Source of the DNA: Natrinema sp. CBA1119
Lineage (GTDB): Archaea > Halobacteriota > Halobacteria > Halobacteriales > Natrialbaceae
DNA: 64,000 nt
Assembly: GCF_002572525.1 (NCBI RefSeq)
Contig: NZ_PDBS01000001.1
Coordinates: forward strand, 2,356,001 to 2,420,000
Reading direction: 5' to 3'
Position numbers and translations under genes: made by a program. Shown in pieces: positions 16,276 to 49,134 of this stretch; position 1 is the first letter of the stretch; each line of letters starts with the position of its first letter. The notes beneath the pieces were generated by a model that ran no database searches, was not told where the DNA came from, and worked only from the letters and a program-made list of their open reading frames with translations.

Positions 16276-16441
16276 TGGGGGAGGTGCGTATTCTCGGCGA
16301 CGACGCAAATATCGGTCCGACCGTTTCGAACAATCGCGACTGATTCACCGGAATTATCCGCAGTGAACGAGCGGTTTACCGATCGAAACGATAGTGGTAG
16401 CCGCAATTAGGCAACCGATCCGAACCCGATTCGGATCAGGG

Positions 16442-16448
16442 TTTAAAT
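16442..16448 (+). promoter_or_regulatory. TATA-like box of the pilus-like locus
   Basis: TTTAAAT at 16442-16448 is centred about 27 nt before the ATG at 16472, the leaderless spacing. The same heptamer precedes two further genes in this locus, at 17744 and 21596. Confidence 0.6.
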
Positions 16449-16471
16449 GGGAAGGGACGGCAACGCTCGCC

Positions 16472-17281
16472 ATGAGCGATATCGAACGTATCGAACGGCG
16501 GCTGTCGACCGTCGAACGCGCGGTCGTCGACGGTGACCTTGAACTGGCTGCCGTCGGCGACGCCGCGTCCCTCACCGAGGACCTCGCGGCTCTCACCGAT
16601 CGGATCGACGCCCACGAGCAACGGATCGCCGATCTCGAGGGACGAATCGACGCATTCGACGGACTCGTCGGCTCCGTCGAATCCGTTAACGAGACCGTCG
16701 AGAAGCGGGCTAACGGGGCCGTCGCAGCTGTCGATCGGCTCGAGTACCGTATCGACGAACTCGAGCGCGTCCTCGGCTCTCGCGATACCGGCGATTCCGA
16801 CGGTGTGAGGGCTGCCCCCGACGACCGAGAGGGCGTCGCGCTCGAACGTGGAACTGAGACACCAGATGGCGGAGGGGAACCGTCCGATAGCGACGGATCG
16901 GGGATCCGAGAGAAGACGGCCGCGGCACCCGACTCGGCCACCGATGGAGACGGTCGCGGGGCACTACCGCCAGTCACTGCGAACGAGCAAACCGTTGGCT
17001 CGCTCTCCGTCGAGCAGACTGCCACGAAAATCGTCGCAGCACCGACCGGCGAAGGCGAGAGCCCGAACCGACAGGACGGCCCCGGTTCCGACGATCGAGC
17101 GGACTCGACGACGACGAGCGCCGGTAGCACTTGGAGCGGAAGGCAAGCCACGCAGGACGCACTCGACTGCCGACTCGCGGACCCGGCGAACGGCGACCGC
17201 TCGACCGAGGAATCGGCGTCGACCGAGGACGACGAACCCGGAAGCGGCATATTTGAGTCACTTCGGTCGAAGCTCCCGTGA
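16472..17281 (+). CDS. coiled-coil protein of the pilus-like locus
   Basis: A 269-residue protein. Residues 1-110 are a strong heptad-repeat coiled coil (IERIERRLSTVERAVVDG, then DRIDAHEQRIADLEGRIDAF). The remainder is disordered, Asp/Glu/Ser/Thr-rich sequence, with a short possible motif SGIFESLRSKLP at the C-terminus. From memory it matches a haloarchaeal coiled-coil family found before PilB-like ATPases (DUF7310), not checked. It may scaffold or tether the ATPase. Its stop overlaps the next gene's GTG. Confidence 0.72.
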   Translation: MSDIERIERRLSTVERAVVDGDLELAAVGDAASLTEDLAALTDRIDAHEQRIADLEGRIDAFDGLVGSVESVNETVEKRANGAVAAVDRLEYRIDELERVLGSRDTGDSDGVRAAPDDREGVALERGTETPDGGGEPSDSDGSGIREKTAAAPDSATDGDGRGALPPVTANEQTVGSLSVEQTATKIVAAPTGEGESPNRQDGPGSDDRADSTTTSAGSTWSGRQATQDALDCRLADPANGDRSTEESASTEDDEPGSGIFESLRSKLP

Positions 17282-17748
17282 TCCGGATCGTCGTTGCCGT
17301 TTTGCTCGCGATTGCCCTCATCGTCCTCGCCGTCCCGGCGATCGAGCGGGGTGCATCGCTGAACACGCAACGGCAGGTCGAAACGAGCATCGCGGCGATC
17401 GACGATGCGGCGACGTCACTCGCGGAAACGGAAGAGATCTCCCCCGACGACCATCCGAACCCCAGGCGAGTCGTCGACGTGCGATTGCCTCGGGGATCGC
17501 TCACGACCGATGCCGTCACTCATTTCGAGATCACTGTGGCGGAAACCGGACGGTACAGCTCCGTTCGGTACGTTCTCGCGGACGGAACGACGCGGACCGG
17601 GGTAATCGACGAACCGGTGGTCTGGAACGACCCACACGGCAACGAATCGGTCGAACTCGACGGAGCCGGTGAGGTTCGACTCGTGTTGTCGCTCCGAGCT
17701 GACGAGAACCGAACGCCGATCGTCGTCGCCACCCGTGCTCGAGTTTAA
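17278..17748 (+). CDS. small N-anchored protein of the pilus-like locus
   Basis: A 156-residue protein. Residues 4-22 form a hydrophobic helix (VVAVLLAIALIVLAVPAIE), with no basic run or cleavage motif obvious, followed by a beta-rich extracellular-type domain. The GTG start at 17278 overlaps the upstream stop by 4 nt, which suggests translational coupling. It resembles uncharacterised haloarchaeal proteins from the same gene neighbourhood (I recall DUF7311, unverified). It could be a minor pilin-like or assembly protein. Confidence 0.7.
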   Translation: MIRIVVAVLLAIALIVLAVPAIERGASLNTQRQVETSIAAIDDAATSLAETEEISPDDHPNPRRVVDVRLPRGSLTTDAVTHFEITVAETGRYSSVRYVLADGTTRTGVIDEPVVWNDPHGNESVELDGAGEVRLVLSLRADENRTPIVVATRARV

Positions 17749-17750
17749 AT
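17744..17750 (+). promoter_or_regulatory. TATA-like box before the pilB-like gene
   Basis: TTTAAAT at 17744-17750 ends inside the stop region of the preceding gene and is about 27 nt before the ATG at 17774. A separate leaderless promoter for the ATPase is plausible. Confidence 0.55.
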
Positions 17751-17773
17751 CAGATGCCGCTGCCACCATCGGT

Positions 17774-19807
17774 ATGTCTCCGGACGGGACCACGCGCCTT
17801 CGATCGGTCATCGACGACCTGGGCCTCGGCGGCGTGTTCGGAAATCGAACCGACACCGCCTCGTCGTGTGGCTGCACTGTAACGTTCGACGACGAGACGC
17901 TCGTTCTCGACGCGACCGACTGCGACGGCGACCTCGAGAACGCGACCGCCTGCCGTCGAACGGCGATCGAAGCGCTGGCCGAGCGAGCGGCCACACGGAT
18001 TATCGTCAGATCGAACGGCCTCGAACGCCGGTACGCCGACCGCGGCGTCGACCTCCTCGAGTCCGCCGGGCGGTTCATCTCGCTTCTTGGCGAGCGCGAC
18101 GAGCGGCTGGCCGCGGCCGCTGCGCGGGACCCGATCGCCGTCGCTTCGGAGGTCCGAACGAGAGCCGGACCGATCGCCGATATCGGCGTCGAATCGGGGC
18201 TGATCGCGGCGGCGACCGGTCTCGAGAGCGACGAGACGGTCCTGCCCGCCACCGTCGGGCTCACTATCGGCCAGTACTTCGTCGACCGAACGATCGACGA
18301 CGGCGCGCATCTCAGAGACCTCCAGTCGCTGCGGACGGGAAGCGAGGCGCGGATCTACGGCCGGCCGGGCGACGTTCCGCGCTACGCCCTCAACGCGGTC
18401 GATACGGCCCTCTCCGACACGGATCGGCGACGGCTCCTCGAGGGATACGAGGCGATCGCCGAGGGAGTCGTCGAGGGCGACCGCGCGCCCTCTCGAGCGA
18501 TCGAGTACGCCAGCGACGGGGCGGCCGACCCGCTCCTGACGGCTATTCTGACGAAACACACGAGCGGGTACGGGATTCTCGAGGACCTGTTCGCCGATCC
18601 GCGCGTCACCGACGTGTACGTCACGTCGCCGGCGGCAGCGAACCCGATTCGCGTCGTCGTCGACGGAGAGTCGATGCCGACGAACGTCCAACTCACGCCG
18701 AACGGTGCGCGAGCGCTCGCCTCGCGGGTTCGCCGCACCAGCGGGCGGGCGTTCTCCCGAGCGAGTCCGACGGTCGACGCGACGGCCTCGCTCGGAGACG
18801 GGACCGGGATTCGGGTCGCGGGCGTCACCGATCCGGTCGCAGACGGAATCGCCTTCGCCTTCCGGGAGCAGCCCGCCGACGAGTTCACGCTCCCGGCGCT
18901 CGTCGCGAACGGGACCGTCCCCGCGGCGGTCGCGGCGTTTCTCTCGGTCGCCGTCGAACGCAACGCCGCGACCCTCATCGCCGGAACCCGGGGATCGGGG
19001 AAGACGACGCTGCTGGGGACGCTCCTGTACGAACTCGCCCCGAAAACGAGAACGGTTCTGATCGAAGATACGCCCGAACTCCCGGTGGACGCGTTGCAGT
19101 CGGTCGGCCGCGACGTGCAGGCGCTCCGAACCGGAACCGGCGACGGTCCCGAAATATCGGCCGCGGACGCGCTCAGGACCGCGCTTCGTCTCGGCGACGG
19201 AGCCCTCGTTGTCGGCGAAATCCGCGGTGAAGAAGCACAGGTCCTCTACGAGGCCATGCGGGTCGGTGCGAACGCCAACGCAGTGCTGGGAACGATACAC
19301 GGCGACGGTGCCGACGACGTCTACGAGCGGGTCGTTTCCGACCTCGGCGTCGAACCGTCGTCGTTCGGCGCGACGGACATCGTCGTGACCGTTCAGGCTT
19401 ACCGGGCCCCGGGAGGACGAGATCGACGACTCGCCAAGGTCGAGGAAGTCGTCGGGACCGGCGACGACGTCCGATTCGAACCGCTGTACGAACTCGAGGG
19501 CGACCGCGCCGTCGCGACGGGGCGGATCGATCGCGGCGAGAGTCGGATCGTGAACCGACTCGCCGGGCCGACCGAGGACTACGCTGCCGTTCGGCGGGCG
19601 ATTTCCTCGCGAACCGAACTCCTGTCGACGCTCGTGAACGACGGCCGAACGAGCCCACAGGCGGTCGCGACAGCGTACACCGGTCGCGGAGACGAGAGAG
19701 GAGACTTCTCTCGGAGCGACGAGACGGCTCACACCGATCGGACCGACGAGCCACCAGCTCCCAATCAGGGCGGTGAGCCACCGGCTACCGATTGGGGCGG
19801 CGGGTGA
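17774..19807 (+). CDS. type II/IV secretion ATPase (PilB/TadA-like)
   Basis: A 677-residue hexameric-type secretion ATPase. The N-terminal 230 residues form a divergent N-domain with a Cys-rich start. Then follows the conserved region: SGYGILEDLFADPRVTDVYVTSP, Walker A GTRGSGKTTL near residue 403, an Asp box IEDTPELP, Walker B-like ALVVGEIRGEE near residue 475, and a His box GTIHGDGADDVYERV. These are the features of the ATPase that powers archaeal and Tad pili and archaella. The C-terminal 60 residues are disordered. It works with the membrane protein encoded next, which begins within a few bases of its stop. Confidence 0.93.
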   Translation: MSPDGTTRLRSVIDDLGLGGVFGNRTDTASSCGCTVTFDDETLVLDATDCDGDLENATACRRTAIEALAERAATRIIVRSNGLERRYADRGVDLLESAGRFISLLGERDERLAAAAARDPIAVASEVRTRAGPIADIGVESGLIAAATGLESDETVLPATVGLTIGQYFVDRTIDDGAHLRDLQSLRTGSEARIYGRPGDVPRYALNAVDTALSDTDRRRLLEGYEAIAEGVVEGDRAPSRAIEYASDGAADPLLTAILTKHTSGYGILEDLFADPRVTDVYVTSPAAANPIRVVVDGESMPTNVQLTPNGARALASRVRRTSGRAFSRASPTVDATASLGDGTGIRVAGVTDPVADGIAFAFREQPADEFTLPALVANGTVPAAVAAFLSVAVERNAATLIAGTRGSGKTTLLGTLLYELAPKTRTVLIEDTPELPVDALQSVGRDVQALRTGTGDGPEISAADALRTALRLGDGALVVGEIRGEEAQVLYEAMRVGANANAVLGTIHGDGADDVYERVVSDLGVEPSSFGATDIVVTVQAYRAPGGRDRRLAKVEEVVGTGDDVRFEPLYELEGDRAVATGRIDRGESRIVNRLAGPTEDYAAVRRAISSRTELLSTLVNDGRTSPQAVATAYTGRGDERGDFSRSDETAHTDRTDEPPAPNQGGEPPATDWGGG

Positions 19808-19814
19808 TCTCGAG

Positions 19815-21530
19815 ATGCTGTTGGTACCGTTTCTCGTTCAGTCGCTCGCCGCACTGTACCCGACCGATGTCGCCGTCAGTGATGCTCTCGCGGAGTCGCT
19901 ATCGTTTACCGACTCCCGCTATGAGGGTGAGACGATCGTCCGAGCGGGATACGGAGCCGGCATCGTTGCCGCCATCGTGCCACTGCCGTTGTTGCTGACG
20001 GCTGCTCCGATTCCGTTCGTCCTGTTTTTCGTACTCGTGACCCCGATCGCGGCGATTCACGGCGTCCATTCGATGCCGCACTTGCAGGCGGCGTTCCGCA
20101 GAACCGAGGCGCTCGGCGAGACGCCAAACCTCGTCGGGCGGGCCGTGTTGCGCATGCAGGTACAGCCGGCACTGGAGAGCGCGGTTCGGTTCGCGGCCGA
20201 GACCGGGTCCGGCCCGTTGTCCGCGAGTCTCGCCGGTCACATCGATCGATCGATTGGAACGCCCGGGACGGGCCTGCTGTCGTTTGCCGAGGAATGGGCA
20301 GAGTGGTTCCCGGCGCTTCGGCGGTCCTCGCATCTGCTCGTCGCCGCCCAGGACGCACCCGATGCCGAACGTGTCCGGACGCTCGATCGATCGCTCTCGG
20401 CCGTTCTCAACGGTACTCGCAGCCAGATGGCGGATTTTACGTCGGCGATCCGCGCACCGGCGACCGGGCTGTTCGCCTTCGGGATCATGCTTCCGCTCGC
20501 GCTCGTCTCGCTCGTTCCGACGGTGCCGATGGTCGGCTATTCCGTCAACATCTGGCTGTTCGTGCTGCTGTACAACGTTGTTCTCCCCGGAACCCTGATC
20601 GCGGCGAGCCTCTGGCTGCTCGTCCGACGACCGGTCGCGTTTCCGCCCCCCGCGATCGACCATGGGCATCCGGACGTGCCCGATCGACTCCGATTGCGGC
20701 TGCTATGGGGAATCCTCGCAAGCGTTTGCGGGTACGTAACGATCGCTACGACCGGGCCCGGCCACCTCGCACCGGTCGCGGCAATCGGCCTCGGCGTCGG
20801 CGTCGCATTGGTCGCAACGTATCGTCCCGTCCTCGCGGTTCGGCAGTACGTCCGCGACGTTGAAGCCCACCTGACCGACGCGCTCTACATCGTCGGTCGA
20901 CAGGTCGCCGAAGGCGAGTCCGTGGAGTCGGCGGTCGAACTCGCTGGCGACCGCGTCCCCGCCGAGACCGGTGCTGTCTTCGAAGACGCCGCCGGAATTC
21001 AGCGGCGGCTCCAGACGGGCGTTCGAGAGGCATTTCTCGGTCACTACGGTGCCCTTCGAAACGTTCCAAGCCCCCGGGCTCGAGGGACTGCCGCGTTGCT
21101 CGCGATCGCCTCGGAAGAGGGGAAACCCGCCGGCCGTGCCATCGTCTCCATGGCCGACCATCTGGAGGAACTCGAGGCGGTCGAAGCCGAGACAAAACGA
21201 AACCTCGAGCAGGTCACCGGGACGCTCGACAACACGGCGGCGTATTTCGCTCCGCTCGTCGCCGGCGCGACCGTCGGCATGGCCGCCATGATGTCGAGCG
21301 AGGATATCATCGCTTCGGGCGAGGTGGAAGCCGCTGCATTCCCCGCGGAATCGCTCGCGGTCGTCGTCGGTCTCTATCTGATCGCGCTCTGTTTCATCAT
21401 CACCCCGCTCTCGATCGGGCTTCGTCACGGTCTCGACCGGGCCCTCGTCGGGTATCACGTCGGTCGTACGCTCGTCTCGGCGATGATCCTCTACGTCCTG
21501 ACCGTCGCCGTCATCGGCGTCTTGCTCTGA
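19815..21530 (+). CDS. type II secretion F-domain membrane protein (PilC/TadC-like)
   Basis: A 571-residue polytopic protein that would form the membrane platform for the upstream ATPase. It has an N-terminal helix region, two T2SSF-type helical domains (about residues 110-200 and 340-480, the second with VGRQVAEGESVESAVELA and GTAALLAIASEEGKPAGRAIVSMADHLEELEAVE), and about seven to nine membrane segments. The start is uncertain: an in-frame ATG at 19773 overlaps pilB by 35 nt and adds 14 residues. I chose 19815 because it begins MLLVPFLVQSL, just after the ATPase stop. Confidence 0.85.
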   Translation: MLLVPFLVQSLAALYPTDVAVSDALAESLSFTDSRYEGETIVRAGYGAGIVAAIVPLPLLLTAAPIPFVLFFVLVTPIAAIHGVHSMPHLQAAFRRTEALGETPNLVGRAVLRMQVQPALESAVRFAAETGSGPLSASLAGHIDRSIGTPGTGLLSFAEEWAEWFPALRRSSHLLVAAQDAPDAERVRTLDRSLSAVLNGTRSQMADFTSAIRAPATGLFAFGIMLPLALVSLVPTVPMVGYSVNIWLFVLLYNVVLPGTLIAASLWLLVRRPVAFPPPAIDHGHPDVPDRLRLRLLWGILASVCGYVTIATTGPGHLAPVAAIGLGVGVALVATYRPVLAVRQYVRDVEAHLTDALYIVGRQVAEGESVESAVELAGDRVPAETGAVFEDAAGIQRRLQTGVREAFLGHYGALRNVPSPRARGTAALLAIASEEGKPAGRAIVSMADHLEELEAVEAETKRNLEQVTGTLDNTAAYFAPLVAGATVGMAAMMSSEDIIASGEVEAAAFPAESLAVVVGLYLIALCFIITPLSIGLRHGLDRALVGYHVGRTLVSAMILYVLTVAVIGVLL

Positions 21531-21625: not shown

Positions 21626-22522
21626 ATGGATCTGGAAGCCCCGGTCGATGCGTGGTACGTCTGGCTCGCCGTCTCGATCGTCAGCGCCGCCGTCGCCGGT
21701 ATCGCACTCGGGCTGCCGACCGGACCGCCCCCGGACACGAACCGAGCCGCAAACATGATCGAACAAACCGCTGGAAGCTCGTACAACGCGAGTGCCACGT
21801 ACGATCACGACGCGACCGAGATCAAGTTCGACGGCCGAACGCTCGCGATGCGAAACGAGCACGGCACTTCCCGCGCGAGTCTCAGCTACGGGCACGTCGT
21901 CCCCGTGATGGGGCACGAACGCCTCGAGAATCTTACAGCGGGCCGATCCTTCGAAGAAGAATACGCGGCGGAGCTCGATGATACGGAGACGCACGCGCTC
22001 GACGACTTTCTCGAGGATGTCGAAGACGCATACGCCGATAACACGGGTGAGTGGCGGACTGCAGACGACCAGCTACGGGTCCGAACGATCAGTACGACAC
22101 CGGTTCCGACGATACGTGCGTCAGTCGAACTGATCTATGCAGCTGGTACGACTCACGAGGCCACGTTTGCGTACGAGGCAAACACGGACACGAAACTGAC
22201 GTTTACCGCCGAAAGCAGGGAACTGGACACATACATCGAGAAATCCGTCGAAGCGTCTCCCTCGAGAGAAACCGCACCCGCTGGACCGTACGATTTCCAT
22301 AAGAACAGTTGGTTGAAATTTCCAGTCGACGTCGAGATCGACGCCGAGGGCGCGACCATCTGTAACGAGACTATTCGGGCCGACCGTGGCAGTGAGATGG
22401 TTCCTCTCTGTGGTCCCGGTGGAGAAACAATCGATATCACGGATACCAACCTCGAGACCCGCGGATACGTGAACAAAAATCGGGAATCGGAGTCGTTCTA
22501 TGTCACGCTCGTCAGCGCCTAA
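21626..22522 (+). CDS. membrane-anchored exported protein, pilus-like locus
   Basis: A 298-residue protein. Residues 10-32 are a hydrophobic anchor (VWLAVSIVSAAVAGIALGL), and the remainder is soluble, beta-rich and acidic, with Asn-Xaa-Ser/Thr sequons (including NLTA, NASA). Haloarchaeal DUF-type family, probably in the DUF7283-DUF7288 group that I recall for such loci, unverified. Base composition drops slightly towards its 3' end. Its final codons overlap the next gene by 23 nt. Confidence 0.72.
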   Translation: MDLEAPVDAWYVWLAVSIVSAAVAGIALGLPTGPPPDTNRAANMIEQTAGSSYNASATYDHDATEIKFDGRTLAMRNEHGTSRASLSYGHVVPVMGHERLENLTAGRSFEEEYAAELDDTETHALDDFLEDVEDAYADNTGEWRTADDQLRVRTISTTPVPTIRASVELIYAAGTTHEATFAYEANTDTKLTFTAESRELDTYIEKSVEASPSRETAPAGPYDFHKNSWLKFPVDVEIDAEGATICNETIRADRGSEMVPLCGPGGETIDITDTNLETRGYVNKNRESESFYVTLVSA

Positions 22523-22985
22523 CGGACAGCGTGGGCAGACCGAGCCGCTCGCCGCGCTCGTCGCCGTTTCGGCGCTTATCGTCGGTATCGGACTCTATGG
22601 CCTATATCTGACGGATACGCTTCCCGGAACCACCGACCGGACGACCGAAGAGACGGCAGTGACTCGGATCAAAGGGGACATCGAGACCGACGGCGTCGTT
22701 CGCAGTTATGGTCACGACGAACTCGAGGACCTGATCGAGACGGCGTCGCTCCCTCACGGACGGAACGTCTACGTGCAGGTGACGGTCGTCGATGACGGCC
22801 GTGAGACCGTCGTCGCCGATGCTTTGTTCGGAACTGACGGGCAGCCGAATCGCGATCCGCTCGAGAGCGGCGAACTCGAGGGGCCGCCGGCCGAGGCCGG
22901 CGTTGCCACCCGTCCCATCGCTGTCGCCACGAGACCCGGTGCGGTCCGCGGTGGAACGCTACTCGTTGGGGTGTGGAACGGATGA
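22500..22985 (+). CDS. pilin-like small protein with hydrophobic N-segment
   Basis: A 161-residue protein. The N-terminal stretch has a charged head (GQRGQTEPLAALVAVSALIVGIG) immediately before a hydrophobic helix. This arrangement resembles class III/IV pilin-like signal sequences with a G-Q or A-Q-type cleavage position, though no prepilin peptidase gene is in this window. The mature part is acidic with a Gly/Pro-rich C-terminal region. It may be a minor pilin. It overlaps both neighbouring genes. Confidence 0.7.
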   Translation: MSRSSAPNGQRGQTEPLAALVAVSALIVGIGLYGLYLTDTLPGTTDRTTEETAVTRIKGDIETDGVVRSYGHDELEDLIETASLPHGRNVYVQVTVVDDGRETVVADALFGTDGQPNRDPLESGELEGPPAEAGVATRPIAVATRPGAVRGGTLLVGVWNG

Positions 22986-24037
22986 GCGCCGACCGCGCCG
23001 TGAGTACGGTCATGGACGTCGCGATGGCCCTCCTGCTCGTTAGCGCCAGCGTCCTGCTGATCGGGATTCACCTGCACAACTCGGACGACAAGTTCGACGA
23101 GAACCGAGCCGACCGGACGGCCGAACTCCTCGGCGAATCGACCATCAGCGTTCAGTACAGTCTCGAAGACGCTGCGCCGATCGCAGATCGGGAGGGGGAG
23201 TACCACCGAACCGAGTACGGCTCGGCCACCGGACTCCTCGCGGACGCGGCCGTCGCGAACGTCCACGTCGACGGCACTCGAATTCGCTCTACAGGCGACG
23301 AGTTCGAAACGGCCGTCGGTGCGTCCGTCGAAAGCGCTCTCATCGGGTCGAACCGCCATTTCTACGTCACCGCTGAGTGGGAACCCTACGACGACGCGGC
23401 GATCAACGGCACGGCGACGGCCGGCGAACGACCGCCGCCGAACGAGGATGTCTCGAGCGTCACGCTGACGGCCTCGAGCGGGATTTCTGCCGTCGATTCG
23501 AACGAGGTCGAATTCGCGTATCTGAACGCCGATACGTACTGGAACGACTATCTTGGCGATCGAACCGACCTCGTCGAGAGCCCGGAGAACGCGTCGTTCG
23601 AAGCGGCCGGAACGGTGATCGGAAACGCGATCGTCGACGGCTACTTCCCGCCCGCGGCAACCCAGCGATCCCTCGAGAGTCAGGGGCTCTCCCACGAACT
23701 CACCGTTTCACAGTACGAGCAGCTGGTGAAACCGCTCGAGTACGAGTTCACTGAGACGACGGCGCCGGCTCACCACGGCCCGCTCAAGCGCGAGGAGGCA
23801 GACGCGGTCGAAGCGAACGCACAGGTGGTTCGCGGGGTTGCAAACGCGGACACGTTCGGCCGGAACGGGCTGGGACACTGGCTCGGGGAGGACCTGCAAA
23901 CGGCGCTGGCAGACGAAATCGCGGCGATCGAGGAGCGCTACGACGGCGAGCGACGCGACGAAGAGACCGCGGCGTTGCTCGCCGACGAAGTATCGACCGA
24001 CGAGGTCACGATTACGATTCAAACCTGGTACGTATGA
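22982..24037 (+). CDS. pilin-like membrane-anchored exported protein
   Basis: A 351-residue protein starting at 22982 with an ATG that overlaps the upstream stop (ATGA). The N-terminus SADRAVSTVMDVAMALLLVSASVLLIG is a charged R-A-V-S-T head followed by a helix, similar to the archaeal pilin-like RAVS/RGQ motif. The C-terminal part is a helical soluble domain (ARG/GLU-rich) with an N-Xaa-T sequon. The likely site is the outer surface. The gene is followed by the large exported protein with a 4-nt overlap. Confidence 0.72.
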   Translation: MSADRAVSTVMDVAMALLLVSASVLLIGIHLHNSDDKFDENRADRTAELLGESTISVQYSLEDAAPIADREGEYHRTEYGSATGLLADAAVANVHVDGTRIRSTGDEFETAVGASVESALIGSNRHFYVTAEWEPYDDAAINGTATAGERPPPNEDVSSVTLTASSGISAVDSNEVEFAYLNADTYWNDYLGDRTDLVESPENASFEAAGTVIGNAIVDGYFPPAATQRSLESQGLSHELTVSQYEQLVKPLEYEFTETTAPAHHGPLKREEADAVEANAQVVRGVANADTFGRNGLGHWLGEDLQTALADEIAAIEERYDGERRDEETAALLADEVSTDEVTITIQTWYV

Positions 24038-27000
24038 CACGCAGACCACACACAGTTTCGATCGCAGACGACGACCGAGCCCGGATTCCGTTCGCCCTGA
24101 TCGCCATACTGCTACTGGTCAGTAGCATCGCGATCGTCGGCGTGCTGGAGTCCAGAGAAACCCCAGACGTCGACACCGATCAGGCGCTCGCCATGGATCG
24201 TGCCGAGTCGGTTGCGATCGCCGAACTGCGGCAGGCGGTCGTCCGCGCGACCGAGGATGCCGCCGGCGCCCCCGTCACGTCGACCGACGGGGCAGCTGCT
24301 TCCGTCAGCGCCGCGATGGATGACGACGAGGCCGTCTTCGACCAGTACCTGAAACTCCTCATCTACCGAGAGGTTTCGGAGTCGTTCGCGAGCGCCCACC
24401 AGCAATTCGATGGAGAGACGACCGCGGAGGCCTCCGTCGAACGGATCGACTGGAGCGACAGCGACGACCTCGAGGCGGCGATCGATCGCGTTTCGCTCGA
24501 GAAAGGCGAATCGGGCGTTCTCACCGTCGCGGTCGACGGCATCGAACTCACCGTCGACGAAACGGAGGGTCAGCCAGTTACCGAGCGACGGGAGCTGTCG
24601 GTGACTGTCGGCACGCCGCTCTACCAGCTCAAAGACCGGACCGATGAGTTCCAATCACAGCTCAACACGGGCTTTTTCGAAAGCGACGGCCAGTACGACG
24701 GTTTCGGGCGGTACTTCGCCGCTCGGATGTACCCGTACGCGTGGGGGAAAGCCTACTACGACCGACTTAGCAGCGGTGATCGCGCCTTCCACAATCTCAC
24801 ACCCAACGAGCACACCGAAGTGATGGTCAACGACGCCGTCTTCGGACTGCAGGAGAAAACCTTCGGTACAACCGACCCGTACAAAGACCGCGCCATGCTC
24901 TTGCCGACGCTCTGTATGGCCGGCGATCTCGCCTCGAGCGCGGGCGACATCGAAACCTCGGACTTCCTCCCGGGCGGCGAGGCGAGTAATCTCTCTAATC
25001 GGACGAATCTCTGTGATAGCGATCTGATCGATCAGGACGGGGAACTTCCGGATCCGCCGACTGTACAGGATATTGTGCTGACGATGCTCGAGGACAACGT
25101 CGAGACTGATGTCGAGATTCAAGCGCATCCGTTCGCCGATGTCGCGTATATGCAGATGGCGAGTGGAATGACTATGGAGCAAGTGGAATCGGAATTCAAT
25201 GACTCGCTGATGAAATCAAATAGATTTTCTGATAACTACCTCCGCAATTACTATTCAGGTAGTTTGGAAAATCAAGATATAGCCGATGATCTGGGAGATT
25301 TTCGAACTAACGGAGGCGGAACGTTAGATAATATTGAACGGCTTTTCAGGGAAAGAGGTCCTAATGAAGCGATTATAAACAAAGTCATTGGAGAAATATA
25401 TACTGTCGACTTGGGAGCAAGCGAAGTAGGGCCATTTAAACAAAATGACTTACCAGACCCGTCTCCACCAAGCGAATGGGCCCAAAATCCTGGAAATTGG
25501 TCTGGACCAGTTAACATTACCTATCATGCTGGTATCTCACCGGCGAAGGCTGATGTCTCAATCGATATCGTATCCAATAACGATGCTACTGGATTTGATG
25601 ATCGGGATCTCGCTACAGTCGATATTAACTATAAGAATACGATTGGCGTTAAGGGGGAATGGAAACATGAGAATGGAAACAAATCGTCATACTCGTCCTG
25701 GAATTGGAAGGAGAATATAACGTATAGTTCCAATTACAAGATTGATGGTGATTTTGTATCTGAGGATATTGGGACTGAGCGTGGGTCTCGCGGTATTAAA
25801 TCGCTAATTGAGAAAGATTCCTGGGAGGAAAAGGATGGTATCATTCAGAACTTCGAAGGTGTCGAGACAAAAGCAGTCAAAGAGACACTTGACCTGAGTT
25901 CGATATCTGTGCAGTCGCAGGAACAAGAACTCGAACGGAAGATTGAGAGCTCAAGCAACTCGATAATTACGGAAAGAGATTTTGGCAAGGCGATTACATA
26001 CTCTTCATCTCCGAATCTCGATGTCGAACCGCAGAACAAAGATGAACTGTATCAGTGGGCGCTAGCCGAACTTAATCAGACACACTACGAGGTCGTGACA
26101 ACCGTGGAGCCTCATCAAACCGACCTCTGGAATATGCTTGAGAAGCCAAGTCCGCTCAAGAAAATCAAGAGGAATGTAAGTAGCTTGGAAGGCGAGTTAG
26201 TGTATCAAAACGTCTCCGAACCATACGACAATACAGCCGATCTCCTCCGTGCAGAGGTTCGGAAGCAATATTTTGAGGACACCTACGATAATATCGGACG
26301 AATTAGCGGCTGGCACGACGATACACTCGGTGAGAGTAATGCCATACTTAATGGTCTCCTTGGCGGTCTTCTCGATACTAGCAATGATCTCCTCGGGGGT
26401 CCAATGAAATTCGTTGATCAGATGATGGATCCCGAAACGCGTCCTGAAGATGCACGAGTATCGCTCGAGAGTTCACCATTGATGGAGGATATGAACTATC
26501 AGGTCGAGGCATCGCCAACGTATCTTTCACTAGAAACTGTTAATCGAACTGATGTCCCAGCAGTCAGACCAGAAGGTGGCGATGTGCTCGCTATCGATAC
26601 TGCCAATGAGACAGACCATGCACCGTTGGGTGCTGGATACTTCGACGGTATCGGTCATCCAGGTTTCCCTCTCATGCCGTGGCCATCATTGTTCTACTTG
26701 CAGCTTGATGCATATTACCTTGAAGTACAAGGAGAATACGCTCGGTTCGAGGTACGTGCTAATAGTGGTGATCCAACAAGCAGCAGCGAGATGACCTATG
26801 TTCGGGAAGACACAGACGTAACGATTGAAACGCCAACTCGGACCGAGGAAAACGAACTTACAATCGGATCTATCGAACCGATCTCGTTCGATAATACTCT
26901 TGTAATTCCGATCGTTGTTCCAAGCCCACAACTGATGGCTAAGGGATCACCGGGAGTCGGTGATACATGGCGATATAAGAATTCAAACTCCCCACGAGAA

Positions 27001-27099
27001 AATTGCTCAGTTGCTTGGGCCAATACCGGCTCTAGTTTCAAGAGTACTGATAGTGTGGGTTGTGTGTCTGGCATGACTGAAGGAAACCTTCCAGTTTGA
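24034..27099 (+). CDS. large N-anchored surface protein with low-GC, sequon-rich C-terminal two-thirds
   Basis: A 1021-residue protein. Residues 18-38 are a hydrophobic anchor (IPFALIAILLLVSSIAIVGV), preceded by a short acidic/basic head. Residues up to about 380 are in normal high-GC haloarchaeal code; the rest, from about 25180, is AT-rich with frequent ATA, AAT and AGA codons. The C-terminal part is rich in Asn and Ser with several sequons, including NITY, NKSS, NQTH, NVSS, NVSE, NRTD and NETD, suggesting an N-glycosylated exterior domain. It may be a tip adhesin or pilus-associated protein. The function is not known, and the mosaic composition points to recombination inside the gene. Confidence 0.78.
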   Translation: MTRRPHTVSIADDDRARIPFALIAILLLVSSIAIVGVLESRETPDVDTDQALAMDRAESVAIAELRQAVVRATEDAAGAPVTSTDGAAASVSAAMDDDEAVFDQYLKLLIYREVSESFASAHQQFDGETTAEASVERIDWSDSDDLEAAIDRVSLEKGESGVLTVAVDGIELTVDETEGQPVTERRELSVTVGTPLYQLKDRTDEFQSQLNTGFFESDGQYDGFGRYFAARMYPYAWGKAYYDRLSSGDRAFHNLTPNEHTEVMVNDAVFGLQEKTFGTTDPYKDRAMLLPTLCMAGDLASSAGDIETSDFLPGGEASNLSNRTNLCDSDLIDQDGELPDPPTVQDIVLTMLEDNVETDVEIQAHPFADVAYMQMASGMTMEQVESEFNDSLMKSNRFSDNYLRNYYSGSLENQDIADDLGDFRTNGGGTLDNIERLFRERGPNEAIINKVIGEIYTVDLGASEVGPFKQNDLPDPSPPSEWAQNPGNWSGPVNITYHAGISPAKADVSIDIVSNNDATGFDDRDLATVDINYKNTIGVKGEWKHENGNKSSYSSWNWKENITYSSNYKIDGDFVSEDIGTERGSRGIKSLIEKDSWEEKDGIIQNFEGVETKAVKETLDLSSISVQSQEQELERKIESSSNSIITERDFGKAITYSSSPNLDVEPQNKDELYQWALAELNQTHYEVVTTVEPHQTDLWNMLEKPSPLKKIKRNVSSLEGELVYQNVSEPYDNTADLLRAEVRKQYFEDTYDNIGRISGWHDDTLGESNAILNGLLGGLLDTSNDLLGGPMKFVDQMMDPETRPEDARVSLESSPLMEDMNYQVEASPTYLSLETVNRTDVPAVRPEGGDVLAIDTANETDHAPLGAGYFDGIGHPGFPLMPWPSLFYLQLDAYYLEVQGEYARFEVRANSGDPTSSSEMTYVREDTDVTIETPTRTEENELTIGSIEPISFDNTLVIPIVVPSPQLMAKGSPGVGDTWRYKNSNSPRENCSVAWANTGSSFKSTDSVGCVSGMTEGNLPV

Positions 27100-28430
27100 C
27101 TATCAATATTTTATATGTTCGATCTTCTGTCGAATTTTCTCATAGGAACCTTATGTCAGAATATGAGGGCTACTTTTCCCAGATATAGTGTGGATCTTTC
27201 CATCTGTTGTAGATACATAGAGAGACCCATCAAAGACAGCCAATGATGAGCCTAAAGAATCTCCCACTTCTTCTCCAAGATTTTTGAAATCCCATTTAAT
27301 AGTACCGTCTTCCGAATCAAATGCAAAAATGTCCTGATAACTGGTGACGTAAACCATTCCGTCAACAATTACTGGTTTTGAGCGTATACTATATCGCAAG
27401 TCCTGTGGTTCCCAAATGTATTCCTGATTTTTAATATCAATAGCAAAGAACTGTTGACCTCCAGCACCAGCCCCGCCGAAATAGATCGTTCCATCTGCTA
27501 TTGACGGACTACATTCCACACTTGCACTAATCTTCTCTGACCACTCTTCTGTGCCATTATCGGCATCAATCGCGTATAATCGTTGATTTTTGCCCCCGAT
27601 ATAGACCGTTCCATTAGCAACTGTTGGATTGCTATCTCCCAAGGATTTTCCTTCCGGGTTTTTGAATGTCCATTCGACTTTTCCACTTTCAGCATTCACC
27701 GCATAAAGAAAGTGCCCTCCCGCAAAGTAGACAATCCCGTTGTTATAAGCTGGAATATCTGTATAGGGACGTCCACCGTTGTGATTTCGCAGATCGTGAA
27801 GTATAGTTTCAGCACCAGTTTCAGGATGGAAACGATATAAAATCATATTTTCCGTACCAACTACCGAATTGCCAGCTAGTACCGGGTTGATACTGCTAAT
27901 TCCCACGTCCTTCCTCCATGAGATATCCTCACTATTTCGGTTAATCGCGACAATTCCATTTTCCGTCCCAGCATATACTTTCTCGTCAGACACCGTCGGA
28001 TAGGCACCGCGTAGATCAGTTACCTGTTTCTTCCATTCGAGTTCCTCAGTCGCAAGGTCGACTGCGTGGAGATGGTTGTCTGCAGCGACGTACAACGTCC
28101 CGTCAACGATTGCCGGACTGTTACTAATCACTCCTTCCGATTCAAAGACGGTCCGCAGTTCTACCTCTTCACCACTCGGTCCAGTCGCCGTCGGATGATG
28201 GCCAGTATTCTGTGGGTCAACCCCGTACATCGGCCACCTGGTAGGTGGGAGTTCCTCGCTGTTTTCAGGTTCGTCACTCGTCTCGTCACTATTCGTACAC
28301 CCAGCCAGCGTTGCAAGCCCCGCAGTAACGCTCGCACAACTCGCCAACCAGTTCCGGCGCGTCCGAATCGATTTCCGACCCATGTTATGTACGGTTACTT
28401 TACTTCAACAAAGTATAATTTTTAGGATAC
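25180..28430. other. low-GC island within the pilus-like locus
   Basis: From about 25180 the sequence changes from about two-thirds GC to visibly AT-rich, and returns to high GC at about 28440. The island covers the distal part of the 1021-residue gene and the entire PQQ-repeat lipoprotein gene. No transposase or att repeat is visible at either edge. The GC figures are by eye, not computed. Confidence 0.7.
27151..28383 (-). CDS. PQQ-repeat beta-propeller lipoprotein (BamB-like)
   Basis: A 410-residue exported protein. The N-terminus TRRNWLASCASV has a twin-Arg pair before a hydrophobic stretch and a lipobox-like LAGC (Cys 29), consistent with a Tat-exported lipoprotein, the usual haloarchaeal route. 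The remainder contains at least six to seven PQQ-like repeats of the form GTVYIGGKNQRLYAIDADNGTEEW, forming a beta-propeller. It lies on the opposite strand to the pilus genes and its composition is AT-rich. A TATA-like AAATTATAC lies upstream (about 28415-28423). Family function is commonly protein scaffolding; the partner is unknown. Confidence 0.82.
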   Translation of the reverse strand: MGRKSIRTRRNWLASCASVTAGLATLAGCTNSDETSDEPENSEELPPTRWPMYGVDPQNTGHHPTATGPSGEEVELRTVFESEGVISNSPAIVDGTLYVAADNHLHAVDLATEELEWKKQVTDLRGAYPTVSDEKVYAGTENGIVAINRNSEDISWRKDVGISSINPVLAGNSVVGTENMILYRFHPETGAETILHDLRNHNGGRPYTDIPAYNNGIVYFAGGHFLYAVNAESGKVEWTFKNPEGKSLGDSNPTVANGTVYIGGKNQRLYAIDADNGTEEWSEKISASVECSPSIADGTIYFGGAGAGGQQFFAIDIKNQEYIWEPQDLRYSIRSKPVIVDGMVYVTSYQDIFAFDSEDGTIKWDFKNLGEEVGDSLGSSLAVFDGSLYVSTTDGKIHTISGKSSPHILT

Positions 28431-28586
28431 TGTCTCGAGCAGAAATCCAGCGTCGAACGGGATCGATCACGGAGTAGTAGTTGACTATCGTCGGATTCGC
28501 CGCTCGAGCAACAGCCATCCAGACAACCAGAGACCAACCGTCAGGACCTGACGGAGGTTCAAAAAGGATGCCGCACCACTGTCGGT

Positions 28587-29870
28587 ATGATCGCTATCGC
28601 CGGCGCGAAGGGCGGCTGTGGAAAGACGGTAACGACGATTGGGCTCGCGGAGGCCGTCGGGAGACGTGGAACGACATCGATCGCGATCGACGCCGATTGC
28701 CAACTGCCGAACTTGCACGTTGCGGGCGGCGTTGATCGGACGCCGACGCTCGCCGCACTCGAGTCCGACGCCGACGTCGAATCGGTCGTCCAACGGAGTC
28801 CCCGAACGTCGAACGTCGGGCTGTTGTCGGCCCCCAAATCGTCGAACGAGGTGAACTTCGAGGTGGCGCTCGACCGCCTCGAGTCCGACGCCGTCCGAAC
28901 CTTCGTGGACTGTCCGTCGGGGGCGGGGATCGATGTCGTCGAACCGCTCTCGGCAGCCGAGGGAGTGATCGTCGTCACGACTGATAGCGAGCGCAGCATC
29001 TCCGCCGCGGAAACGACGATCGAGATGGCCCGCCGACTCGAGGTGCCGATTGTCGGAACGGTGGTAAACAGATGCGAGAGCGTCCCGAAGACGGTCAGGT
29101 CGTGGACCGACGTGCCGGTTCTAGGCCGGGTGCCCGACGGAACGGCACCGCTGACGGACGAGGCGACTCGAGCGGCCTACGACGAGATCGCGGCGACGAT
29201 AGCGACGAGAACCGCGATGGATGGATCGGCTCCTCCGTACGACGACGATCTGCTGCGGACCGGGTACGATCCACTCGATCGGGCGTTCGGTGGCGGGCTG
29301 GAACCGGGATCCATGGTCGCGGTCGTGGCGGCCCCGGCCAGTCGCTCCGAACGGTTTCTCTCCGAGGCGACTGCCGTCCGCGGCACGCTCTATCTGTCGA
29401 CTGAACGGTCGTCGGCCAACGTTCAGCGAGCGCTCGAGTCCGTTCCGACGGCGACGGGAAATCCGACGGTCCGCCGCCTCAGTGATGAGAACGGGCTCGC
29501 TGAGGCGAGATCGATGGCCGATAAACTCCCGGCGTCGTCCACGCTGGTCGTCGATCCCGTGAACGCGCTCGAGCGGGACGGTCGTGACGAGTACGTGTCG
29601 TTTCTCGACGACCTCAAGGAGCAACTGGTCGAAACCGGGAGCATCGGCCTGTTACACTGTCTAAAGGGTCACACGATTCCGTCGAATCGAACAGTGACGA
29701 CGCACGCAGCCGATGCGGTCTTCGAGATAACGGCGGTCACGCCCGAGACAGGGGCGAACGTCGAACACTATCTGTCGGTTCCGAAGTATAGAGCCGACGG
29801 GGCGACCACGGAAGCGATCGAACTCGAGTTCGGAGAGGAGACGGTCGCCCCGACTAGTGACGCGTTCTGA
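28587..29870 (+). CDS. MinD/ParA-type ATPase fused to a degenerate RecA/KaiC-like domain
   Basis: A 427-residue protein. Residues 1-210 are a deviant-Walker ATPase: GAKGGCGKTVTT (P-loop with signature Lys), IDADCQLPNLH, a VDCPSGAGID Walker B-like segment and VNRCE. From about residue 220, TGYDPLDRAFGGGLEPGSMVAVVAAPASRSERF resembles the start of a KaiC/RecA domain, but the GxxGxGKT of its P-loop is degraded to PASRSER. A second domain that lacks nucleotide binding yet keeps the fold would make a bipartite partner. Similar proteins occur beside haloarchaeal pilus-like loci. A TATA-like box is about 27 nt before the ATG. Confidence 0.82.
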   Translation: MIAIAGAKGGCGKTVTTIGLAEAVGRRGTTSIAIDADCQLPNLHVAGGVDRTPTLAALESDADVESVVQRSPRTSNVGLLSAPKSSNEVNFEVALDRLESDAVRTFVDCPSGAGIDVVEPLSAAEGVIVVTTDSERSISAAETTIEMARRLEVPIVGTVVNRCESVPKTVRSWTDVPVLGRVPDGTAPLTDEATRAAYDEIAATIATRTAMDGSAPPYDDDLLRTGYDPLDRAFGGGLEPGSMVAVVAAPASRSERFLSEATAVRGTLYLSTERSSANVQRALESVPTATGNPTVRRLSDENGLAEARSMADKLPASSTLVVDPVNALERDGRDEYVSFLDDLKEQLVETGSIGLLHCLKGHTIPSNRTVTTHAADAVFEITAVTPETGANVEHYLSVPKYRADGATTEAIELEFGEETVAPTSDAF

Positions 29871-29922: not shown

Positions 29923-30621
29923 TCAGCGGACACCGATTCGATCGGTCAGCCGTTTCTCGCAGCGTTCGATCCGCTGGGCGACCGTCTGAACGGCGTCGAC
30001 GGCCGAACAGTCGGGATGGACGTCGCGAACGGGACGCCGGTGGGCCTGCGCGTCGGCGACCGCCGGCAGTTCCTCGAGCCCGATCGCCGGCGCGCCGAAG
30101 TACCGCTCGACGCGGTCACCGATCCGATCGATGGCCGCAGTGTCAGCCCTGTTGAGGACGACGGCTGCGACCGGCGTCTCGAGATCGAGGGCGAGCCGCT
30201 TCGTCCGGAGCGCATCGGTCAGGGCCGGCTCGGTCGGCGTCGTCACGAGGACGGTCAGCTGGGCGCATGCGAGTTGTTGGCCCACGTCACGCGCCAGCCC
30301 GGCGGGACAGTCGACGAGGACGCGACCGAACTCGCGTTCGATCCGGTCGATCACTCGCGCGAACGCGGTCAGGTCCACAGCGCGAGCGCCGGCGAGGGTT
30401 CGCCCGCACGGAAGGACGCGCACCGCATCGCGGCGGTCGATCGCCTCGAGCGGGTCGGCGCGACCGGCGAGCACATCGTGGAGGTTCGGGCCGTGACCGC
30501 GTGGGAGGTCGGCGGTCGTGAGGTCGCCGTCGACGACGACCGCGTCCAGCTCGCGACCGAGGTTCAACGCGATCGTCGATTTACCGACGCCGCCTTTGCC
30601 GCCGCTGACGGCGACGATCAT
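29923..30621 (-). CDS. MinD/ParA-family ATPase
   Basis: A 232-residue deviant-Walker ATPase: MIVAVSGGKGGVGKSTIALN (P-loop with signature Lys), VVVDGDLTTADLP, VLVDCPAGLARD and VTTPTEPALTDALRT. No membrane-targeting helix is clear at the C-terminus. Haloarchaea carry several MinD paralogues; MinD4 localises chemotaxis and archaellum machinery. This one is divergent from the fused MinD-RecA protein, and it overlaps the upstream hypothetical gene by 4 nt. Any role in positioning the pilus machinery is inference from context. Confidence 0.87.
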   Translation of the reverse strand: MIVAVSGGKGGVGKSTIALNLGRELDAVVVDGDLTTADLPRGHGPNLHDVLAGRADPLEAIDRRDAVRVLPCGRTLAGARAVDLTAFARVIDRIEREFGRVLVDCPAGLARDVGQQLACAQLTVLVTTPTEPALTDALRTKRLALDLETPVAAVVLNRADTAAIDRIGDRVERYFGAPAIGLEELPAVADAQAHRRPVRDVHPDCSAVDAVQTVAQRIERCEKRLTDRIGVR

Positions 30622-30983
30622 CGCTGCCGTTCGAGAACGTCGGGCGTCGGTTTCCACTCGGTCAGTGACGCGAGCGCGTCGGCCTCGCTCGCCGACCGAT
30701 CGGTCGAGGCCCGCCGAGCGGACACCACTTCGAGCGGCGGGTCAGCGGGCGCTGCGGGACTCGCGAAGCCGATACCGCGGTGCTGGTTCGGTTCCACGAT
30801 CCCGTCCCAGCCCGCGTCGGTCCACTCGGGATCTGGATGCGGTCCGCGACCGGGATGCCAGAGAGGGCCGTCGAGTCGGCTCTCGAGACGGACTCGTTGT
30901 GGCGTCGTCGCGGTGGTCGCGACGGTCGCGGAAACCAGCGTCACTCCCTCGATCCGGTCGATCTCCCAGTCGAGTTCGATCAC
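30618..30983 (-). CDS. hypothetical protein in a MinD operon
   Basis: A 121-residue protein with two strand-rich segments, IDRIEGVTLVSATVATT and PQRVRLESRLDGPLWHPGRG, then WDGIVEPNQHRGIGFASPAAPADPPLEVVS, and a disordered end. It is an uncharacterised haloarchaeal family usually paired with a MinD-like ATPase. The reading frame overlaps the MinD start (ATGA), so translational coupling is likely. Confidence 0.72.
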   Translation of the reverse strand: MIELDWEIDRIEGVTLVSATVATTATTPQRVRLESRLDGPLWHPGRGPHPDPEWTDAGWDGIVEPNQHRGIGFASPAAPADPPLEVVSARRASTDRSASEADALASLTEWKPTPDVLERQR

Positions 30984-41830: not shown

Positions 41831-42166
41831 TTGGGATCACCTCCCGCGCTGTCGAGGGGGTGTTAGTGGGGGTTGGGGCTCGAGTGTTACAGCGACGGCG
41901 AACCCCAAATCTTTGTGCTGGCGATACCTCCTGCCGTGTGTGGGATTTTTGTCCCACGGAACGCTCGAGATTCATTGTGGATCACGGAGCTTCGGCCGGA
42001 CGGCGGTGCAACGCCGTTCGGTCTCACTAACTGACGAGAGTCATCCTCGCCAAGTCGGTCGCTCCACACTGGCCACTAATGCCCTGATATTGCATAAATG
42101 TATTCTCGTGTCTAAAAGGCACTATACGGGGCAAATAGGGGAGCAAACGGTGTAAGGGAGACAGGA
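41831..42166. other. 336-bp intergenic region with a short hairpin
   Basis: No gene is seen. A GTGGGA...TCCCAC hairpin with a T-rich loop sits at about 41938-41957, and GC content falls towards 42100. The last part (around 42120-42160) may be the promoter of the wHTH gene at 42167. Confidence 0.4.
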
Positions 42167-42484
42167 ATGCGAAAATCTGGGTCATGGATGACGATCTGGG
42201 ACGACCGTATACTCGAGTACATTCGAAACGAGGACTCCGGTTCGCCGAAGAAACTCGAGGAGAGCGGCTACGTGCGGGTTTCGAAATCCCACATCTCTCG
42301 GCGTCTTCGGACGCTCGCAGAGCACGATTTGCTTACCCATCTCGGAAATGGCGTCTATGTAATTACGGAGCGCGGCGAAGCGTATCTCGACGGCGAGTTT
42401 GATACAAGTGAGGATGCAACGGAATCCTTGGTCGATGAGACAACCGAGAACGAAGAATCAAAATTCGACTCTGAGGGGAACTAA
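42167..42484 (+). CDS. winged-helix protein resembling the PhiH1 repressor type
   Basis: A 105-residue wHTH protein. WMTIWDDRILEYIRNEDSGSPKKLEESGYVRVSKSHISRRLRTLAEHDLLTHLGNGVYVITERGEAYLDGE gives helix-turn-helix and wing, followed by an acidic Thr/Glu tail. The opening segment WDDRILEYI with GSP spacing is shared with the haloarchaeal phage PhiH repressor group. A Shine-Dalgarno-like GGGAGA precedes the ATG, although an internal ATG at 42188 (MTIWDDRIL) is also possible. It borders a low-GC stretch that leads to tRNA-Tyr, which suits a mobile-element origin. Confidence 0.78.
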   Translation: MRKSGSWMTIWDDRILEYIRNEDSGSPKKLEESGYVRVSKSHISRRLRTLAEHDLLTHLGNGVYVITERGEAYLDGEFDTSEDATESLVDETTENEESKFDSEGN

Positions 42485-42757
42485 TGCCAGTCACGTCCAC
42501 AGGCGCCTGAACGAGGAATTATTGTCGTAGCTATCCGTAGTTGACTAATCTCGTCTGTCGTGACCTTCTACTTGTTCAGGTTTGCAGTTTCCAATTGGTT
42601 GCGTCTTGGACAATACTAGCTGAAAATATAGTATTTCCGATGCTATTCGACGAGTGGTTAATGAACATCTTGTCTGACTCCTACATATTTTGGGTATGTT
42701 AAAATTGTCACTTAGAACCTCAGAACTATTTTTATTATTGACTACATCATCTCTTCT

Positions 42758-43015
42758 ATGAACAGGCGCGGACTCGACGAATGGGCTATCGTTCTCGCTA
42801 TAAGCGGAACCGTTGCGTTCACCGGCTTGTTAATTCTATCTGCAACTATCAATCCGACTACTGCTATTAGTCAAGGAGAACCCCTCTACCGTCTACAATC
42901 ATCTCTTCTAAGGAGAATCGATGTTACATATCCATTGCTAGCAAAAGGGGGAATTGTGATGGTTTTAGTTATTCTTGGAACGCTCGTTGCAAGAATTGGT
43001 TCTCAGGGACGGTGA
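42758..43015 (+). CDS. small low-GC membrane protein
   Basis: An 85-residue protein with two hydrophobic segments, about residues 10-29 (AIVLAISGTVAFTGLLILSA) and 62-80 (LLAKGGIVMVLVILGTLV), with a polar loop between. Codon use is AT-rich, unlike the surrounding genome. A TATA-like CTATTTTTATT at 42726-42736 is about 27 nt before the ATG, so the gene could be expressed without a leader. I do not recognise a family. Confidence 0.62.
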   Translation: MNRRGLDEWAIVLAISGTVAFTGLLILSATINPTTAISQGEPLYRLQSSLLRRIDVTYPLLAKGGIVMVLVILGTLVARIGSQGR

Positions 43016-43120
43016 TGAATACTTGTCTACGTAGACAGAAGTCTAAGTTCCATTATAGCTCTACTCTCACTTATATACGTTGTTGGAGTTGGCGATATCC
43101 AAAAGCGAATTGACCGGCGG

Positions 43121-43334
43121 CTACGACAGCCACTCGAGCACACTGCCGAACCATCGACTCGCCCGCGACGTCACTGGGATCGATCGGTGGGCCGACTCGA
43201 GTTCGGATCGAACGCGGCGTCCGACGGCGTTCACGACGAGCAGGCGGACCACCGCTGTAGCGAGGAGCAGCGACTCGAGACGTTACAATCTCCCCGGCCG
43301 GTCTTGGCAGTGCTCTGGAAACCGCACGGGTCAC
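43121..43334 (-). pseudogene. possible frameshifted membrane-protein fragment
   Basis: A GTG at 43334 opens VTRAVSRALPRPAGEIV in one frame. About 50 nt in, a frame change leads to LESLLLATAVVRLLVVNAVGRRVRSELESAHRSIPVTSRASRW, with a transmembrane-like segment, a strongly GC-rich third codon position and a clean stop at 43121. The second frame has a stop (TAA at 43283-43285) just before it, so no single intact frame exists. It looks like a decayed coding fragment. The call is tentative. Confidence 0.35.
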
Positions 43335-43505
43335 GCCACTGAGTGGGAAACGAAATACTCGGAATCTCTGTGTAAACGACGGAAGCGACGGTCGATCCGC
43401 CTCTCACTTAGTGCCTGTAAGACGCGTTCGCTGCGCGCGAGTCATACGACTGTACACCGGAAGCGCCATCAGTACAAGCGGCTCTCTCGGATACTATCGG
43501 TCGAA

Positions 43506-48852: not shown

Positions 48853-48911
48853 GGGGTTTCGTTCGCCGGGAAACGGTAAAAATCTGCGTGTGTGACAATT
48901 AGACAGCGGAA

Positions 48912-48933
48912 GCCCACGACGTTAGTCGTGGGC
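48912..48933. repeat. left-end hairpin of the IS element
   Basis: GCCCACGAC (48912-48920) and its complement GTCGTGGGC (48925-48933) form a 9-bp stem with loop GTTA, in the position of a TnpA-recognition hairpin. Confidence 0.75.
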
Positions 48934-48965
48934 CTAAGCGATAGGCACAGTGAACCGAACAATCG

Positions 48966-49109: not shown

Positions 49110-49134
49110 AAGACTTAATAGACATACAGACGTT

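Follow-up and report, generated by a model that had tools for sequence, protein, structure and literature searches.

Tails of two convergent surface-type genes exchanged as one cassette in a pilus-like locus of Natrinema

The variable 3' tails of two convergent genes in a pilus-like locus of Natrinema are, almost certainly, exchanged between species by homologous recombination. The exchanged unit comprises both tails, is about 3 kb long and occupies positions 25180-28160 of the window (the whole stretch of 64,000 nucleotides analysed here, from Natrinema sp. CBA1119), with a right edge that varies from ~28010 to ~28170 in the identity profiles, depending on the pair of genomes compared. One of the genes encodes a large exported protein of the DUF7286 family (PF23957), and the other a PQQ/BamB-like propeller lipoprotein. 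This is probably a diversifying cell-surface specificity locus, made of a pilus-associated giant protein and a lipoprotein partner whose tails move between species as one cassette. An earlier sequence-only reading of this DNA had proposed that the exposed part of a surface protein had been exchanged; the idea is right in kind, but wrong in origin and extent.

Gene content of the locus and limits of the variable segments

The DUF7286 gene (24034-27099, + strand) encodes an exported protein of 1021 aa with an N-terminal TM helix, assigned to PF23957 with an E-value of 4e-110 and a score of 370 bits versus a cut-off of 27, and with full-length homologues in 8 other congeners. Its predicted structure was of modest confidence (pTM 0.48), and the fold search with this weak model gave no match; the literature search found no paper naming DUF7286. 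Convergent with it lies the gene for the propeller lipoprotein (27151-28383, - strand; PQQ_2, E 5e-34), a protein of 410 aa whose N-terminus carries a signal of the twin-arginine type and a lipobox (LAGC), and whose predicted model has BamB as its nearest PDB fold (Foldseek E 6e-20). The propeller fold (best PDB matches) and the lipoprotein anchoring are common to this protein and the BamB lipoprotein, with an identity of ~20%. To our knowledge, archaea, haloarchaea included, have neither an outer membrane nor a BAM complex, indicating that the PQQ protein resembles BamB in fold only.

The gene set upstream and downstream of DUF7286 reads as a Tad-like pilus operon, with a secretion ATPase of the T2SSE family recognised by Pfam. 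The upstream genes, all on the + strand, are: a DUF7310 coiled-coil protein, a probable operon member (16394-17281); the T2SSE ATPase of type II/IV secretion (17669-19807); a polytopic membrane protein without Pfam match, TadC-like by position only (19773-21530); and, all three matched by Pfam, DUF7283 (21626-22522), whose distal part is variable, DUF7285 (22500-22985) and DUF7284 (22973-24037), an operon flank conserved in line with the species tree. The right flank is a MinD/ParA-like ATPase fused to DUF7125 (28587-29870, + strand; Pfam), whose trees also agree with the species tree. The DUF7283, DUF7284, DUF7285 and DUF7286 proteins carry N-terminal hydrophobic helices, and none has a pilin family match in Pfam. 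Two further features of the flanks were observed. The distal part of DUF7283 (window ~21984-22284) is a second, smaller variable spot, where nucleotide identity is 52-60% between G000 (the genome of the window) or G008 and G021, and 78% between G026 and G007, against about 90-98% in the surroundings. After the cassette there are two MinD/ParA-like ATPases on opposite strands (28587-29870 and 29923-30657), the first being the one fused to DUF7125.

GC3 falls inside the DUF7286 gene from 0.77 to ~0.38 at residue ~385 (window ~25180). In 40-codon windows it was 0.72-0.85 up to ~24900, 0.53 at 25114, 0.42 at 25174, 0.28-0.35 at 25234-25474 and mostly 0.35-0.62 over the rest of the gene; this profile locates within ~100 nt the abrupt break that the sequence-only reading had placed at about 25180. 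The GC content of 25000-28500 is 0.43-0.49, whereas the flanks are mostly at 0.60-0.70. The AT-rich DNA extends from the break to ~28160, and values of 0.55-0.6 are regained at 28150-28350, in the 5' end of the PQQ gene. The return to high GC had been put at about 28440; the low GC at 28350-28450 corresponds to an intergenic stretch only, and the evolutionary right edge is softer and lies at ~28010-28160, inside the PQQ gene. The DUF7286 protein was found full length (66-100% identity) in nine of the 29 genomes of the genus, that of the window included. All nine show the break (GC3 0.75-0.84 before codon 380, 0.33-0.51 after) and all nine have the PQQ gene convergent behind DUF7286. G020 harbours a divergent DUF7286 copy (29% identity), and DUF7286 or DUF7284 were undetected in 19 of the 29 genomes, indicating that the pilus-like operon itself is patchily distributed in the genus.

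Five segments are distinguished between the left end of the DUF7286 gene and the right end of the PQQ gene. The constant GC-rich 5' head of DUF7286 (residues 1 to ~381; 24034-25175, + strand; GC3 0.77) is the left homology arm, with nucleotide identities over most of its length of 90-96% to G008 and 88-91% to G021. It is followed by a hypervariable AT-rich spot (residues ~383-690; 25180-26103, + strand), where amino acid identity over residues 396-690 is 48-65% in all congener pairs except G004-G026, almost regardless of relatedness (70-98% in the heads), and nearly all of these comparisons are close to saturation at synonymous sites. The next part of the AT-rich tail (residues 701-960; 26134-26913, + strand) is better conserved and retains the clade structure, with amino acid identities of 84-88% in the clade of the window and 68-76% between clades. 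On the other strand, the variable AT-rich tail of the PQQ gene (residues ~75-410; 27154-28160, - strand) shows 35-74% amino acid identity between alleles (94% in the exchanged pair G004-G026), and the constant 5' head (28161-28383, - strand; signal, lipobox and the motif WPMYGVDPQNTGxHPTATGP), the right homology arm, is an invariant block in the nine alleles, where nucleotide identity recovers. The PQQ gene of G021 is apparently truncated, with a frame of 366 aa versus 401-410 in the others and stop codons in the remaining match. The edges of the exchange fall inside both genes and shift from pair to pair, within DUF7286 codons ~360-390 on one side and PQQ codons ~50-130 on the other. The sequence-only reading had expected unrelated C-termini and had placed a complete PQQ gene in the AT-rich stretch; instead, the tails are homologous over their whole length (hypervariable at ~390-690, better conserved at 700-960), and the unit of exchange is formed by both tails (~25180-28160), with the 5' heads of both genes as arms, the PQQ gene being more than a passenger carried whole.

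Exchange between species and allele classes

The comparison was made between species-level genomes, one per species. In seven of the eight pairs examined, the synonymous differences (pS), 0.0-0.5 at first, climb to mostly 0.5-0.9 at residues ~365-400; in the eighth, G004-G026, the pS of the tail is 0.00-0.16, below most of its own head. G026 is the clean recombinant. Compared with G007 in 150-nt windows, it is 92-100% identical over 1.3 kb before and after a block spanning ~+1100 to +4100 from the DUF7286 start, and only 38-85% identical inside; versus G004, which is another species, identity inside the same ~3 kb is 90-99%. Informative sites favour G004 inside the block (920 of 957) and G007 outside it (428 of 568). 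On either side, the flank trees group G007 with G026 (support 99-100), whereas G026 groups with G004 in the trees of DUF7286 395-690, DUF7286 700-980 and the PQQ tail; the AU test rejects G007+G026 in these three segments (p 4e-74, 2e-4 and 1e-33, respectively). There is, therefore, a tree conflict with both flanks and the breakpoints are in conserved arms, as in an allelic exchange cassette. In the surrounding 64-70 kb the median identity is 0.95 for G026-G007 and 0.93 for the window and G008; the other low-identity windows in this region are mainly unaligned and of normal GC, together with an AT-rich patch at 42-43.5 kb.

For the genome of the window, the evidence consists of a PQQ class different from that of G021 and a saturated divergence from its sister G008; at residues 700-880 it tends to join G021 and not G008, a tendency that is not significant in the AU test (p 0.08). 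PQQ tails form two classes: class I (G000, G008, G015, G005, G007) and class II (G021, G025, G004, G026), the support of class II being itself moderate (75/80). Since G000 and G008 belong to class I and G021 to class II, these close relatives must differ by one replacement or more. Both classes occur in each of the three species clades, and the monophyly of each species clade was rejected for the PQQ tail (AU p 3e-5, 0.006 and 0.010). The alleles are thus old and common to several species, and the distribution of the PQQ-tail classes among these sequences appears to follow the pattern of a trans-species polymorphism. Over long times there is little link between the DUF7286 middle alleles and the PQQ classes (a weak one at residues 401-440 and at the extreme C-terminus), and for the DUF7286 middle the grouping of class II as a clade is rejected, which weakens strict co-adaptation of the two tails.

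Identity profiles and trees agree with the conserved N-terminal anchor and the homologous replacement of the distal part that the sequence-only reading had suggested. The search of the genome with its own DNA gave, besides the locus, just a 32-nt match and no second template copy. A diversity-generating retroelement or switching from silent copies was discarded, as there is no second, similar copy in the genome; site-specific insertion was also discarded, as repeats at the edges are only short and imperfect and the edges vary between pairs. Homologous replacement between haloarchaeal species and genera has been reported to be frequent and interspecies mating has been demonstrated (PMC4500145, PMC8223754), which makes the interspecies replacement described here feasible.

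The organisation of the locus suggests how the exchange may work. The GC break marks the edge of the ~3 kb allelic cassette: the two convergent genes have their constant, GC-richer 5' heads outside and their variable, AT-rich 3' tails back to back, and homologous recombination in both heads would swap both tails in one step.

Recurrence in Natrialbaceae and proposed surface function

A second genus shows the same cassette design. Between G340 and G125 the DUF7286 proteins are 91-97% identical over most of their length and differ at residues 401-550, identity falling to 46% at 401-500 and 84% at 501-600; the PQQ proteins are 95-100% identical in the first 300 residues and 28-48% in the last 100. 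Pairs alike in the DUF7286 middle (G371-G154, G179-G348) have similar PQQ tails too, and pairs differing in one differ in the other; this joint change suggests functional coupling without proving it, the two spots being physically linked. The DUF7286-PQQ pairing is conserved in the family: among the 50 loci examined, the convergent PQQ gene is present at 30 of 36 in Natrialbaceae (missing at six) and at none of the 14 outside the family. PQQ presence goes with the GC3 drop and with GC-poor downstream DNA (Mann-Whitney p 8e-6 and 3e-9, respectively, uncorrected for relatedness). The intragenic break itself belongs to a subset of loci, since several PQQ-positive loci, those of genus g43 (with long-form proteins), G020 and genera g8, g6 and g44, show a slight drop inside DUF7286 or none at all, together with GC-poor DNA downstream. 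At two loci (L125 and L126, of G371 and G154) two tandem PQQ lipoprotein genes, and not one, are convergent behind DUF7286.

The N-terminal TM helix, the lipobox and the Asn-X-Ser/Thr sequons would fit a surface exposure of the tails, which may be the exposed, specificity-giving parts of two proteins acting together at the cell surface. Exchange would be favoured, most likely, because rare alleles escape viruses using the structure, or else because the locus sets cell-cell recognition; as selective agent, we give virus escape about half of the weight, cell recognition about a fifth, and the rest to an adhesion niche and conflict roles. That the locus is mainly a determinant of cell-cell recognition (mating or kin-type), and not a virus-escape or antigen-like one, is rather unlikely. 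Two linked variable proteins with trans-species allelic classes, and variable spots that change in concert in the second genus, would be expected of such a determinant, and mating in Haloferax depends on surface recognition (PMC5496957); but viruses account equally well for the selection of rare surface alleles, as in the islands of Haloquadratum walsbyi (PMC4535781). In its specific form, a two-component system in which the DUF7286 tail and the propeller are cognate, balancing selection keeps old trans-species alleles and the type changes in one step, this is a minor possibility that we still retain.

The preferred reading, a diversifying surface specificity locus, has its nearest published analogue in the VARTIG modules of Thermococcales (PMC8416519). 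In both cases the C-terminal part of a large surface protein is hypervariable via interspecies recombination and the linked neighbours are variable too; for the VARTIG modules, self/non-self recognition was proposed as the function. VARTIG modules, however, are based on Ig-domain proteins with differing downstream gene sets, whereas here DUF7286 is accompanied by one convergent BamB-like lipoprotein in a pilus operon; Pfam found no Ig-domain family in the DUF7286 protein, and its weak model had no fold match to suggest one. The authors of that work searched other archaea for Ig-based modules of this kind, without finding any close counterpart (PMC8416519). In the cell-wall genomic island 1 of H. 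walsbyi, homologous recombination likewise diversifies haloarchaeal surface genes, which is proposed to restrict infection by viruses (PMC4535781); that island comprises whole S-layer and envelope genes, while the 3 kb cassette described here has its breakpoints within two genes, was followed from one species to another and is found again in several genera. Archaeal type IV/Tad-like pilus systems share with this locus the T2SSE ATPase, exported proteins, a MinD-family ATPase and a coiled-coil protein, but neither an exchange cassette nor a PQQ lipoprotein is mentioned for them (PMC4858521). The site looks like an apparently undescribed locus for surface recognition or virus escape: it is short, has clear limits and recurs within an archaeal family, and interspecies exchange diversifies two surface-type proteins there together. 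DUF7286 gains from it a conserved partner gene and an evolutionary behaviour, and two questions become testable: what selects haloarchaeal surface diversity (viruses or recognition), and how AT-rich variable alleles persist in GC-rich genomes despite near-saturated synonymous sites.

AT-richness of the alleles and less likely explanations

The AT-richness appears to be an old property of the allele pool, and not the mark of a foreign donor. GC3 falls as variability rises along DUF7286 (rho -0.85; -0.83 inside the cassette), so that the force keeping GC high seems weaker where alleles differ from one another. A GC-biased gene conversion needing similar partners would yield low GC in variable segments; its existence and direction in prokaryotes are disputed. 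In an experiment with Haloferax volcanii, GC content did not decide the direction (PMC8223754).

It is improbable that low GC is selected for itself (e.g. for chromatin silencing or at convergent transcript ends), with variability as a secondary effect. GC-poor DNA does recur at the same convergent junction across genera and accompanies the PQQ gene, and in genome G032 the downstream GC is 0.52 at the copy with PQQ and 0.66 at the copy without it; nevertheless, GC3 in the cassette tracks variability, reaching its minimum ~1.7 kb from the junction (residues 421-540), and the tree conflict is left unexplained. Hypermutation of the tails in situ, or their very rapid evolution in the absence of exchange, is very unlikely; it would account for the jump of synonymous divergence at the same point in most pairs and for the GC3 decrease with variability. 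Against it, G004 and G026 resemble each other more in the tail than in the head, and the trees conflict as described above; pairs are either alike or saturated, which fits whole-allele replacement; and the pairs sharing an allele, G371-G154 and G004-G026, have ordinary synonymous divergence in their AT-rich tails (tail pS no higher than head pS), a lack of excess that indicates allele replacement and not hypermutation.

A constant head, a variable tail, a linked variable gene and their joint exchange are also what a polymorphic toxin/immunity pair would show, with the DUF7286 tail as effector and the PQQ lipoprotein protecting the producer; polymorphic toxin systems (PMC3482391) indeed combine a shared constant head, a recombining tail and a linked variable partner gene. 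We regard such a pair as very improbable here: no toxin domain was found by Pfam, which matched only DUF7286, or by fold (weak model); the tails are homologous; the most distal DUF7286 part is conserved and it is the middle that varies; and the partner is a convergent, membrane-anchored propeller lipoprotein in place of a small co-directional immunity gene.

Finally, a single recent import from an AT-rich, unrelated donor into the strain of the window, the origin that the abrupt drop of GC and GC3 at 25180 would suggest, is scarcely credible: the identical break is present in all nine congeners; the tails are homologous along their full length; the closest outside relative, G032a (another genus; 55-56% identity over the full length), is GC-rich in both parts (GC3 0.82 and 0.81) and has no PQQ gene; no AT-rich donor was found in 391 genomes of the class or in plasmids; viral contigs, searched by PQQ alignment only, had no PQQ relatives; and G045, the one AT-rich case (GC3 0.35) examined outside the family, has a distant homologue only, without the PQQ gene. 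The shared break and the GC-rich G032a indicate that the low GC did not arrive recently in this strain, and the foreign, strain-specific distal part of the sequence-only reading is not maintained. Close relatives do have the full-length protein, at the same odd GC and not at the normal one, which refutes a recent foreign origin, while exchange was shown directly. The distal part of DUF7286 is enriched in sequons, as had been noticed: it has 11 (1.7 per 100 aa) and the head 3 (0.8 per 100 aa). This enrichment is, however, no sign of foreign origin, since the GC-rich G032a shows the same trend (1.25 distal versus 0.53 head per 100 aa).

Elsewhere in the window, ~1.8 kb at 48901-50700 (GC 0.53-0.63) have no alignable counterpart in the sister genome G008. 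The AT-rich patch at 42001-43500 (GC 0.47-0.49), a poor match in G008, contains a small winged-helix-like ORF (42167-42484).
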